From Steroidobacteraceae bacterium (GTDB lineage Bacteria; Pseudomonadota; Gammaproteobacteria; Steroidobacterales; Steroidobacteraceae): DNA of 64,000 bases. The notes beneath the pieces are model-generated. The model saw nothing but the letters and a program-made list of their open reading frames with translations, did not search any database and was not told the origin of the DNA. Position numbers and translations under genes: made by a program. Below, piece after piece: positions 3,197 to 61,043 of this stretch. Positions within the stretch are counted from its first letter, which is position 1, and each line of letters starts with the position of its first letter. The DNA lies in assembly GCA_019634915.1 (NCBI GenBank), contig JAHCAN010000011.1:1-64000 (forward strand), written 5' to 3'.

Positions 3197-3238
3197 AAAA
3201 AGGGGCCGCCCTCGCAATCCGCGAGGGCGGCCCCTTTT
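3197..3238. terminator. Bidirectional rho-independent terminator
   Basis: A perfect hairpin lies between two convergent genes. The arm at 3202-3215 pairs with 3221-3234 around a five-base loop, with A bases before it and T bases after it, so it can end both the lipoprotein transcript and the secA transcript. Confidence 0.92.
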
Positions 3239-28163: not shown

Positions 28164-28296
28164 CGCGCGGCGAGGGAAAAAATTGCGGGCCGACAAGAAC
28201 TTACGCTCGATCCGGCCCGCCGTCGAGGGGATTTTTCCGGAGCGACCTCTTAGCTATCAGAGGCTTGGAAGACGAAGCTTATACAGTAGTGAAGAA

Positions 28297-28633
<337 letters not shown>

Positions 28634-28649
<16 letters not shown>

Positions 28650-31478: not shown

Positions 31479-31850
31479 GTGGCGGCGGACAGGGACCGTC
31501 TGCAGCGGGGCCGCGATGCCGAGGAGCGCGCGGCGCGCTACCTCGAGGCGCAGGGCCTGACGATACTCGCGCGCAATTTCCGCCGGCGCGCCGGCGAGAT
31601 CGACATCGTCGCGCGCGACGGCGGCACGCTCGCGATCATCGAAGTGCGCTCGCGCGCAACCCGCAGCCACGGCGGTGCCGCGGCCAGTGTCGGCATGCGC
31701 AAGCAGCAACGCCTGATCCGCGCCGCACACCTGCTGCTCGCCGCGCATCCCGAGTGGCGGCGGCTCCCCGCGCGCTTCGACGTCGTGATCGAGGAAGGCG
31801 ACGGCGAAGCGGCAAGAATCGAATGGATACGGCACGCGTTCACGACCTAG
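31479..31850 (+). CDS. yraN: YraN family nuclease-fold protein
   Basis: A protein of 123 residues of the UPF0102/YraN family with a restriction-endonuclease-like core. GRDAEERAARYLEAQGLTILARNFR is followed by the catalytic-type motif GEIDIVARDGGTLAIIEVRSR, in which the D, E and following residues form the nuclease-like site. The physiological role is not known. Start GTG at 31479, fifteen bases after lpoA. In Pseudomonas it is followed by gmhA and a BON-domain gene; here a palindromic repeat follows instead. Confidence 0.9.
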   Translation: MAADRDRLQRGRDAEERAARYLEAQGLTILARNFRRRAGEIDIVARDGGTLAIIEVRSRATRSHGGAAASVGMRKQQRLIRAAHLLLAAHPEWRRLPARFDVVIEEGDGEAARIEWIRHAFTT

Positions 31851-31908: not shown

Positions 31909-32108
31909 CGGGACGGTGGCGGTCGTCTTGCGGCCGACGACGAGCGTGGAGAGCGCCGAGGCGCGGCGAGCAGCGCGAGGCGTCGCGCAAAGGATTCTGC
32001 TGCCGCAGTTCAAATTCACGCCTCGCGCCGCCGCGCCGAGGGCACGGCGCCGCAGGCGCCGTGCTCGACCCGCGAGGAGTCGGCCGCAAGACGACCGCCA
32101 CCGTCCCG
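31909..32108. repeat. Palindromic dispersed element, copy A
   Basis: A 200-base element fills most of the 309-base gap between the convergent genes yraN and sspB. A perfect 30-base inverted repeat (31909-31938 with 32079-32108) encloses a core (31944-32076) nearly identical to copy B. Inside the core, 31973-31983 pairs with 32018-32028, extended by 31960-31968 with 32029-32037. A second hairpin pairs 32042-32051 with 32055-32064. The first hairpin has a loop of about 34 bases with TTCTGCT and TTCAAATTC. There is no open frame of note and no T tract. I do not recognise the family. No gene lies in this gap. Confidence 0.85.
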
Positions 32109-32159: not shown

Positions 32160-32564
32160 CTACTTGACCACTTTGAGCTGCGGCCTGCGCCCGGTCTCGT
32201 CGGCCGGCGTCGGCTTGGTCGGCGGCGGCTCCGGCCCGCCTTCGTCGGCCGGGAACACCATGCCCTCGCCGCTCTCGCGCGCATAGATGCCGAGCACCGC
32301 GTTGACCGGCACCTTCACGTGGTGCACGACGCCGGCGAAGCGCGCGTCGAACTCGACCCAGTCGTTGCCGAGCACGAGCCGCTGCGTCGCGCTGATGCTG
32401 ACGTTCAGCACGATCTTGCCGTCCTTCACGTAGGCGCGCGGCACCTGCACGCCGGGCCGGCTGGCGTCGACGATCACGTGCGGCGTGCCGCCGCTGTCGC
32501 TGACCCAGCCGTGCATCGCGCGCAGCAGGTACGGGCGCCGCGAGAGCTTCGCCCCGCCGCTCAT
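32160..32564 (-). CDS. sspB: ClpXP protease specificity-enhancing factor SspB
   Basis: A protein of 134 residues. The N-terminal dimer domain has RRPYLLRAMHGWVSDSGGTPHVIVDA and LNVSISATQRLVLGNDWVEFDARFAG, both typical. A flexible acidic and proline-rich linker follows. The final RPQLKVVK is the XB peptide that docks on ClpX. It delivers ssrA-tagged peptides to ClpXP. It follows sspA by 13 bases, as in other gammaproteobacteria. Confidence 0.95.
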   Translation of the reverse strand: MSGGAKLSRRPYLLRAMHGWVSDSGGTPHVIVDASRPGVQVPRAYVKDGKIVLNVSISATQRLVLGNDWVEFDARFAGVVHHVKVPVNAVLGIYARESGEGMVFPADEGGPEPPPTKPTPADETGRRPQLKVVK

Positions 32565-35920: not shown

Positions 35921-37072
35921 ATGAGCCAGCAGAGCCTTGGCCGCGCAGCGGTGTTCCTCGCCGGATCGATCGTCGGGGGCCTGGCGCTCGCCTTCGTGAT
36001 CGTTTTCCTGAGGCCCGAGCTGCTGCGCGCACCGCAGCCGCAGGCGGTCGCGGCCCCGGCCGCCGAAGCGCCACCAGCCGTCGTGACGCCGGCCGCAGCG
36101 GGCGTCGTCAGCTATGCCGACGCGGTCGCGCGCGCGGCGCCGGCGGTCGCCAACATCTATTCCGAACGCGTGGTCAAGGAGCGGCTGCCCCCGGCGACGC
36201 TCGGCGAGCTGTTCGGCGGCGTGATGCCGCGCTACCGGCAGCGCATCGAGCAGACGCTCGGCTCGGGCGTCGTCGTCGACGATGCCGGGCACATCGTCAC
36301 CAACCATCACGTCATCGACAATGCCGAGCGCGTCAGCGTGCAGCTCGCCGATGGCCGCCAGGCGGAAGCGCGCGTGGTCGGCCGCGATCCCGACACCGAC
36401 CTCGCGGTGCTGTATGTCGACCTCGCAGCGATGCCGGTGATGCCGCTCGGCCGCTCCGATCAGCTGCGGGTCGGCGACGTCGTGCTCGCGATCGGCAACC
36501 CGGTCGGTCTCACCCAGTCGGTCACGCAGGGCATCGTCAGCGGCACCGGCCGCGGCCAGCTCGGCGTCGCGACGTTCGAGAATTTCATCCAGACCGACGC
36601 GCCGATCAACTTCGGCAACTCGGGCGGCGCGCTCGTCAACAGCAACGGCGAGCTGGTCGGCATCAACACCGCGGTGCTCGCCAAGAGCCTCGGCGTCGAG
36701 GGCATCGGCTTTGCGATCCCGGTGAACCTCGTGCGCGGCGTGATGCAGGAGATCCTCGACCACGGGCGCGTGATCCGCGGCTCGATCGGCGTCGGCCTCG
36801 CCGAGGTCGACGACGCCCAGGCACAGCGCCTCGGCCTGCCGCGCGCCGGCGTCGTGATCACCAATGTGTTCCAGGGCAGCCCCGCCGCCGAAGCTGGCCT
36901 GCAGGCCGGCGACATCGTCCTGACGATCGCCGGCCACGCCGTGCGCGGCCAGCAGGACGCCCTGACGCGCATCGCCGCCTCGAAGCCGGGCGAGCTACTG
37001 GACGTAGCGGTCGTGCGACGCGACGGCGACCGCACGATCCAGGTCAAAGTGACCGAACGCCGGACAAGCTGA
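35921..37072 (+). CDS. DegS/AlgW-type membrane-anchored serine protease
   Basis: A trypsin-like HtrA family protease of 383 residues. One N-terminal membrane helix (about residues 9-30) and an alanine-proline linker precede the protease domain. The catalytic triad is in VTNHHVIDN (His), RDPDTDLAVLYV (Asp) and NFGNSGGALVN (Ser). A single PDZ domain follows (about 285-375, with GVVITNVFQGSPAAEAGLQAGD). One PDZ domain and an anchor are the DegS/AlgW layout, the site-1 protease that cuts the RseA/MucA anti-sigma factor in the envelope stress response. In Pseudomonas algW also lies between the bc1 region and murA. Confidence 0.92.
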   Translation: MSQQSLGRAAVFLAGSIVGGLALAFVIVFLRPELLRAPQPQAVAAPAAEAPPAVVTPAAAGVVSYADAVARAAPAVANIYSERVVKERLPPATLGELFGGVMPRYRQRIEQTLGSGVVVDDAGHIVTNHHVIDNAERVSVQLADGRQAEARVVGRDPDTDLAVLYVDLAAMPVMPLGRSDQLRVGDVVLAIGNPVGLTQSVTQGIVSGTGRGQLGVATFENFIQTDAPINFGNSGGALVNSNGELVGINTAVLAKSLGVEGIGFAIPVNLVRGVMQEILDHGRVIRGSIGVGLAEVDDAQAQRLGLPRAGVVITNVFQGSPAAEAGLQAGDIVLTIAGHAVRGQQDALTRIAASKPGELLDVAVVRRDGDRTIQVKVTERRTS

Positions 37073-37094: not shown

Positions 37095-37285
37095 GGCGCC
37101 GGCGGCGTCACGCAGCTTGCGCCTCGCGTGGAGAGCGCCGAGGCGCGGCGAGCAGCGCGAGGCGCCGCGCAAGGGTTCTGCTACCACAGTTCAAATTCAC
37201 GCCTCGCGCCGCCGCGCCGAGGGCACGGCGCCGCAGGCGCCGCGCTCGACCCGCGAGGCGCAAGGTGCGTGACGCCCCCGGCGCC
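37095..37285. repeat. Palindromic dispersed element, copy B
   Basis: A 191-base element in the 298-base gap between the convergent protease and murA genes. Its core (37126-37257) matches that of copy A except for a handful of substitutions and one single-base gap. The outer arms, 37095-37127 and 37253-37285, are complementary over 33 bases with two mismatches, but their sequence is unrelated to the arms of copy A. The inner hairpins are kept, each with one mismatch. The orientation of the core is the same as in copy A. Nothing coding was found here or in 37286-37370. Confidence 0.85.
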
Positions 37286-37370: not shown

Positions 37371-39935
<2,565 letters not shown>

Positions 39936-60938: not shown

Positions 60939-60949
60939 GGGCCGCACCG

Positions 60950-61021
60950 GCCTGAGGAGCGCTGCGACAGGGGCAAGCCCTGCCAGGCTCAGGCGACGGT
61001 GCAAACATGACAACGGCGCTC
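60950..61021 (+). promoter_or_regulatory. S-adenosylhomocysteine (SAH) riboswitch
   Basis: The leader of ahcY matches the SAH riboswitch. P1 pairs CCTGAG (60951-60956) with CTCAGG (60988-60993). The conserved GAGGAGCGCTGCGAC is followed by a short CAGGG/CCCTG hairpin, then GCCAGGCTC. The pseudoknot pairs GAGCGC (60957-60962) with GCGCTC (61016-61021). This class switches on SAH hydrolase genes when toxic SAH accumulates. The Shine-Dalgarno GGAG of ahcY lies 15 bases after the pseudoknot. Confidence 0.93.
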
Positions 61022-61043
61022 GTCATGACATTCGGAGCACGAC

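Follow-up and report, generated by a model that had tools for sequence, protein, structure and literature searches.

A probable foldback repeat with a long paired outer stem in gaps between convergent genes of Steroidobacteraceae

Two copies of the element in the window

The window considered here is a stretch of 64,000 nucleotides from contig JAHCAN010000011.1 of a Steroidobacteraceae bacterium, whose genome (G000) is a draft of 2,784,465 bases in 58 contigs. Two copies of a non-coding element, A and B, lie in the window in the same orientation and each occupies a gap between convergent genes (Table 1). Copy A is located between a UPF0102 gene, presumably YraN-like, and sspB. Copy B is located between a protease gene and a gene of the EPSP-synthase family that we take to be murA. 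The long outer stem of copy B is formed by nucleotides 37095–37128 and 37252–37285 and pairs over 34 nt with two mismatches, while its 129 nt core shares 95% identity with that of copy A. Stem, core and placement are as a sequence-only reading of the window had described them. The same reading held that the arms of the two copies share no sequence, which is correct beyond the innermost ∼12 nt and incorrect within them.

RNA folding gives z-scores of -8.1 for copy B and -11.2 for copy A, and 0/200 shuffles fold as well. The arm-pairing scores are 25 for copy B and 30 for copy A. In the null set, in which the left flank of one copy was paired with the right flank of another copy (338 pairings), the median is 7, the 95th percentile 10 and the maximum 19. 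The combination of stem and core seen in the window is not due to chance. Next to the core, the inner bases of the left arm of copy B read CCTC in place of the GACGA loop of the family and match the right side.

A known RNA family was rejected for the element, as Rfam 15 gave no match at the gathering score over the window element or in six further loci; a permissive scan of 221 nt returned sub-threshold matches only. Elsewhere in the window, an ordinary bacterial RNase P RNA (class A) is found at 28293–28649 and an ordinary SAH riboswitch at 60948–61028.

Table 1. Positions in the window of the two copies, their parts and the neighbouring genes.
Feature	Position	Strand	Basis or remark
Copy B, left outer-stem arm	37095..37125	+	Partner 37255-37285; 34-nt stem includes core-terminal GCG/CGC
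Copy B, core (junction strand, hairpin 1, hairpin 2)	37126..37254	+	Covariance-model match and consensus fold
Copy B, hairpin 1 (long, variable apical loop)	37139..37221	+	Alignment A1, columns 14-97
Copy B, hairpin 2 (short, strongly covarying)	37227..37241	+	Alignment A1, columns 103-118
Copy B, right outer-stem arm (ancestral GAGG kept beside core)	37255..37285	+	Stem pairing, loop state
Copy A, left outer-stem arm	31909..31938	+	30-nt perfect pairing with 32079-32108
Copy A, internal loop, left side GACGA (ancestral open state of the family)	31939..31943	+	Loop comparison
Copy A, core	31944..32073	+	95% identity to copy B core
Copy A, internal loop, right side GAGGA	32074..32078	+	Loop comparison
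Copy A, right outer-stem arm	32079..32108	+	Pairing with left arm
Trypsin/PDZ protease gene, left of copy B	35921..37072	+	Pfam PF13365, PF13180
EPSP-synthase-family gene, right of copy B, convergent	37371..38663	-	Pfam PF00275
UPF0102 gene, left of copy A	31479..31850	+	Pfam PF02021
sspB gene, right of copy A, convergent	32160..32564	-	Pfam PF04386

Architecture, spread and setting of the repeat family

The element is best explained as a dispersed non-coding foldback repeat of ∼190–200 bp with REP/BIME/ERIC-like behaviour. Its unit consists of a ∼130 nt core, a stem that opens into two hairpins, enclosed by an outer stem of ∼30 bp. In its consensus fold the core is a three-way junction: the closing stem opens into hairpin 1, which is long and varies freely in its apical region, and hairpin 2, which is short. 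Both sides have changed in 14 of the 27 predicted consensus pairs. In searches with a covariance model made from 38 cores, G000 gave 19 matches and G001–G006 gave 7, 1, 12, 3, 34 and 3, respectively, some of them partial, so that all seven searched genomes of the genus have matches. Among 120 genomes of the family nine have matches, namely the seven of the genus together with G074 (three matches) and G016 (one). With stricter filters, seven of 246 genomes drawn from the order have matches and these belong to the same three genera. The core with its long paired outer stem recurs across the genus, and in several gaps it is an insertion that is absent from relatives. The lone match in G016, which represents another genus, is a distant relative (L175, 1030–1255) with arms of ∼40–50 bp and an A/T-rich hairpin 2; a tRNA gene was rejected as the source of these arms because ARAGORN found none behind them (ten loci).

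For the comparison of copies, 65 of 87 HMM hits were kept as full copies; duplicates arising from overlapping loci, incomplete hits and those close to a contig end were removed. A 23-base pattern was found in 45 stretches of genome contigs. Full copies according to the HMM occur only in records of this genus, and the genome records from outside it match over the short stretch only. The pattern has no match in viral contigs, on which ground a phage origin of the repeat was rejected.

Of the 57 copies with callable neighbours on both sides, 35 lie in convergent-gene gaps, as counted with a crude gene caller and with each copy of a pair taken separately. The baseline in the window, obtained with slightly stricter settings of the gene caller, is 10 convergent pairs out of 48 neighbouring gene pairs. 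The preference for such gaps first suggested by copies A and B thus extends to the family. Inverted (divergent) pairs of copies are seen at many G005 loci and in G000 at C10, C18 and C22. The G005 loci L062, L063, L064, L066, L069, L070 and others hold divergent alpha/beta copies ∼170 nt apart, and the spacers of L062, L064 and L070 contain one more hairpin, which is of the TGAGGTGAG...CTCACCTCA type. At L081 (1069–2152; C25 of G001) two divergent copies with identical arms surround genes for a PIN-domain protein and a TacA1-like antitoxin, and this locus may be a composite carrying a toxin–antitoxin pair.

Pairing, inheritance and origin of the outer arms

The outer arms pair far beyond expectation in nearly all copies. 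The pairing score exceeds the 95th percentile of the null in 61 of the 65 full copies and its maximum in 48. In G000, 17/18 copies score above 19 and eight are perfectly paired over 30–34 nt. Weak pairing is seen in L071- (one copy), L072, L083 and L093, with scores of 6–10, and L006 scores 13. Stem length in G000 is 28–35 nt in 17/18 copies, L008 scoring longer with mismatches. Taken together, the arms of the 65 copies contain 1870 Watson–Crick pairs, 43 G·T, 35 A·C and 68 transversion mismatches.

Whether the arms travel with the core depends on the genome. G005 copies with more similar cores also have more similar arms (r = 0.65, 276 pairs), the arms being about 0.72 identical without gaps where the cores are 0.90–0.95 identical, and in G074 the three copies have common arms in which the differences are paired. 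In these two genomes the outer stem therefore belongs to the element. Homologous arms inherited with the core are what the sequence-only reading itself had named as refuting it, and they are seen in G005 and in the three G074 copies, and in G000 for the inner ∼12 nt only. In G001 and G003 the arms track the core weakly (r = 0.34 and 0.32, respectively). In G000 the correlation is 0.15 (153 pairs), and where the cores are at least 0.90 identical the arms are 0.37–0.45 identical, compared with 0.33 for shuffled arms. Four pairs of G000 copies have cores that are at least 95% identical and outer ∼20 bp of the arms that are unrelated. Nevertheless, the arms are not wholly unrelated even in G000. 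Among copies whose cores are at least 0.8 identical, agreement is 0.50–0.68 at the inner 12 arm positions and 0.27–0.47 in the bins further out, with similarity at the background level beyond 12 nt on both sides (14/18 copies compared; L010 (both), L014 and L015+ left out as degenerate). The motif TCCG occurs at the same inner arm position in 10/18 G000 copies and 23/26 G005 copies, with a chance expectation of 0.023. Alignment of the copies thus confirms that the outer ∼20 bp are unshared in G000 and corrects the sequence-only reading for the inner ∼12 nt, and the idea that all arms are unrelated was dropped in view of these positions and the G005 homology. The arm homology in G005 and G074 together with the shared inner arm in G000 indicates that the arms belong to the element. 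The confinement of homology to the inner ∼12 nt in G000 means that some decoupling of core and arm is real, and the outer parts of the G000 arms appear to have been replaced or to have drifted past recognition.

One way to obtain pairing without shared sequence would be for a mobile core to insert into the loops of long intergenic hairpins that already exist, for example bidirectional terminators, as the sequence-only reading proposed. Each G000 copy does have its own arms, paired right up to the end of the core, while the cores are alike, and there is a precedent in IS elements whose insertion targets are REP palindromes (PMC1525189, consulted in part). Orthologous gaps that lack the element, however, contain no empty stem. 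The longest perfect stem measures 4–10 nt in 22/22 such gaps, comprising nine at site A (G001, G002, G003, G005, G006, G007, G029, G014 and G012), four at site B (G006, G029, G012 and G014), three at L005 (G002, G004 and G006) and six from congeners at L008, for which the first ∼105–136 nt after the gene end were used. In addition, perfectly paired arms that reach 18 bp occur in 43 hairpins of the genus loci chosen around copies (176,322 bases, N-run artefacts removed), and all belong to the repeat family: 39 carry the core motif, two are diverged copies, one is a deletion derivative and one results from pairing of two copies with each other. Only at 3198–3238 does the window have a further perfect stem that reaches 18 bp. 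The homology of the arms between G005 copies also speaks against pre-existing hairpins. Stems that lack a core do occur in G005 and G003. In L179, L180, L183, L095 and L094 hairpin 1 or both hairpins are cleanly lost, as though skipped during replication, and the core's own ends are kept, for which reason these stems look like products of hairpin deletion and not like empty targets. Insertion into existing hairpins is largely refuted here and we regard it as very unlikely. Among the remaining gaps, the site A gap of G004 (L052) contains an unrelated ∼1.4 kb insertion with a longest perfect stem of 10 and was not counted, the site B gap contains a copy in G001, G003 and G004 and remnants in G002 and G005, and the L005 gap of G005 has its own pair of copies.

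Two further explanations are doubtful to different degrees. The mobile unit could be the core with ∼12 nt on each side (∼150 bp), the outer ∼20 bp being written anew at each site by reverse-copying of one flank, so that in G000 each insertion would build its own hairpin of near-constant length. The drop of arm similarity to background beyond 12 nt, the narrow range of stem lengths and the eight perfect stems in G000 are in agreement with this, but the outer arms of the G005 and G074 copies are inherited. Moreover, when the arm of the local copy was sought in 18 element-free gaps it ranked anywhere from 1 to 18 among 18 arms and came first in three. Derivation of the arms from the target site was set aside for want of a consistent signal in this search, which has low power because intergenic DNA has diverged. 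The arm of L008 resembles the end of the neighbouring gene, but equally high scores are obtained with other arms. We consider such rewriting of the flanks improbable. A slightly lower probability still is given to a functional RNA that processes, stabilizes or terminates convergent transcripts and in which selection alone keeps the stem paired. It would account for the enrichment in convergent gaps and for the covarying core, in which G·U outnumbers A·C mismatches by 12 to 2 when counted by cell (p = 0.013) and by 7 to 2 when counted by column (p = 0.18), one weak pair (columns 18/93) being excluded; this bias leans toward RNA on this strand, and the core may thus have an RNA role. The arms have no such preference (43 G·T to 35 A·C, p = 0.43). 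Near-equal numbers are predicted for pairing or copying at the DNA level, while a strand-specific RNA should tolerate G·U more, and the arm mismatches therefore give no sign of selection on the stem as RNA. Against a functional RNA are also the tolerated loss of one or both hairpins and the absence of the element from many gaps of relatives. In addition, neither an A-run nor a T-run was seen by eye beside the stem of copy B, unlike the hairpin at 3198–3238, which resembles a bidirectional terminator with an 18 bp perfect stem, an A-run and a T-run. A DNA repeat whose arms stay paired although their sequences differ between copies should not be taken for a functional RNA on that ground alone.

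A candidate mechanism and its relation to known repeats

The reading that we favour, with a probability of about 0.6, is that of a foldback repeat whose stem is kept paired by template switching from arm to arm and whose core is spread by recombination between copies. In single-stranded DNA the two arms would fold together, and replication would copy one arm from the other, so that a change in one arm is passed on to its partner. The arms could then drift quickly and yet stay complementary. Homologous recombination between resident copies would spread the core sequence, the exchange stopping where the homology of the arms ends, which would leave near-identical cores within unrelated arms as seen in G000. 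The repeat itself would be selfish or neutral and tolerated at the 3' ends of convergent genes, and a secondary effect on transcript ends is possible.

The internal loop next to the core provides a trace of such copying. In relatives GACGA stands opposite GAGGA. Scored with one mismatch allowed, this loop is open on both sides in 38/38 copies of G002–G005 and 5/6 of G001, and it is closed in 13/18 copies of G000 and 3/3 of G006. In five of the closed G000 loops (L001, L004+, L006, L007 and L015-) the right side is ancestral and the left side is its complement, the state seen in copy B. In another five (L002, L005, L008, L013 and L016) the left side is ancestral within one mismatch and the right side is the complement, and three further closed loops have no clear source side. 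L007 and L008 have cores that are 95% identical and identical apical loops, and are closed in opposite directions. According to published work, stems can arise and be maintained through template switching, the mark of which is the replacement of several adjacent bases by the exact complement of the other arm (PMC8794818, consulted in part). In G000 four to five neighbouring bases of one arm thus seem to have been overwritten by the complement of the other arm, in both directions. We infer these template-switch steps by comparing copies, in a set that holds no strain-level relatives.

Mosaic copies point to the second half of the mechanism. L090 (G003) has an alpha-type core inside beta arms, L074- (G005) is of beta type in its arms and hairpin 2 and of alpha type in hairpin 1, and in L004+, L004- and L006 (G000) the nearest neighbour differs by segment. 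Such mosaics probably reflect recombination between resident copies with an exchange that ends where arm homology ends.

Some observations count against arm-to-arm copying. The unrelated outer ∼20 bp at core identities of at least 95% in G000 need either very fast turnover of the arms or conversion of the core only. The weak tracking of core by arms in G003 and G001 and the RNA-like G·U excess of the core do not favour it either. Should this reading be correct, the dozens of copies would form a replicated natural record of how the arms of bacterial hairpins are copied from one another, in which the core serves as an internal clock and the loop reveals which arm was the template. The family would then offer a bacterial test of whether template switching, and not selection alone, maintains long stems.

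Mobility was considered as well. Mobilization by a RAYT was rejected, since no PF01797 protein (RAYT, Y1 transposase) is present in 7/7 genomes of the genus, the control being detected in 5/14 genomes. A target-site duplication, as expected of a MITE, is not evident in the 60 copies compared (of 65), whose fuzzy ends weaken the test: the longest direct match beside the arms is 3.77, compared with 3.72 (sd 0.12) in shuffled pairings. Nor did any other sign of a mobility mechanism emerge, and this, too, counts against the favoured reading. In E. coli, SbcD belongs to an enzyme that cleaves long palindromes. It has no match (TIGR00619) in 12/12 family genomes, with the control detected in 13/14 and over the cut-off in eight. 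This absence may permit long palindromes. It does not explain the repeat family, because SbcD is also absent from G007, G023 and G012, family genomes without model matches to the element.

Our literature search, mostly outside subscription journals, found no description of this repeat family, and the comparisons that follow rest on parts of the cited papers. REP, BIME and REPIN elements are short intergenic palindromes that share the preference for convergent-gene gaps (PMC3733652, PMC1525189), and they often form inverted pairs with a structured spacer (PMC3733652) similar to the pairs of G005; inverted intergenic pairs are also found in G000, as given above. REP stems, however, are described as 5–13 bp long with GTAG or CGTC tags and a total of 20–40 bp, whereas the present unit of ∼190–200 bp has a ∼30 bp outer stem and a three-way core and thus falls outside this definition. 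One of these tags, CGTC, does appear on the opposite strand where GACG lies beside the left arm, although it is not accompanied by a stem of 8–9 bp with a 4–5 nt loop. REP elements are also mobilized by RAYT (TnpA-REP), for which the genus has no PF01797 candidate. ERIC, YPAL and Bcr1 come closer in being intergenic, hairpin-forming, ∼115–168 bp long and of moderate copy number (PMC2267715). A variable, nearly perfect outer stem is not among the features described for them in the part consulted, and it is by description that they are set apart. IS1397, ISPpu9 and other IS elements that target REP sequences likewise link insertion to intergenic palindromes (PMC1525189), but the repeat studied here has no coding sequence and no prior palindrome at the tested sites. 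Quasipalindrome correction also produces changes of several bases after which the two arms are exactly complementary (PMC8794818). It is a mutation process, while here it would act on a dispersed repeat and in opposite directions in different copies. The family is a variant of structured intergenic repeats, notable mainly as a natural test of arm-to-arm copying.
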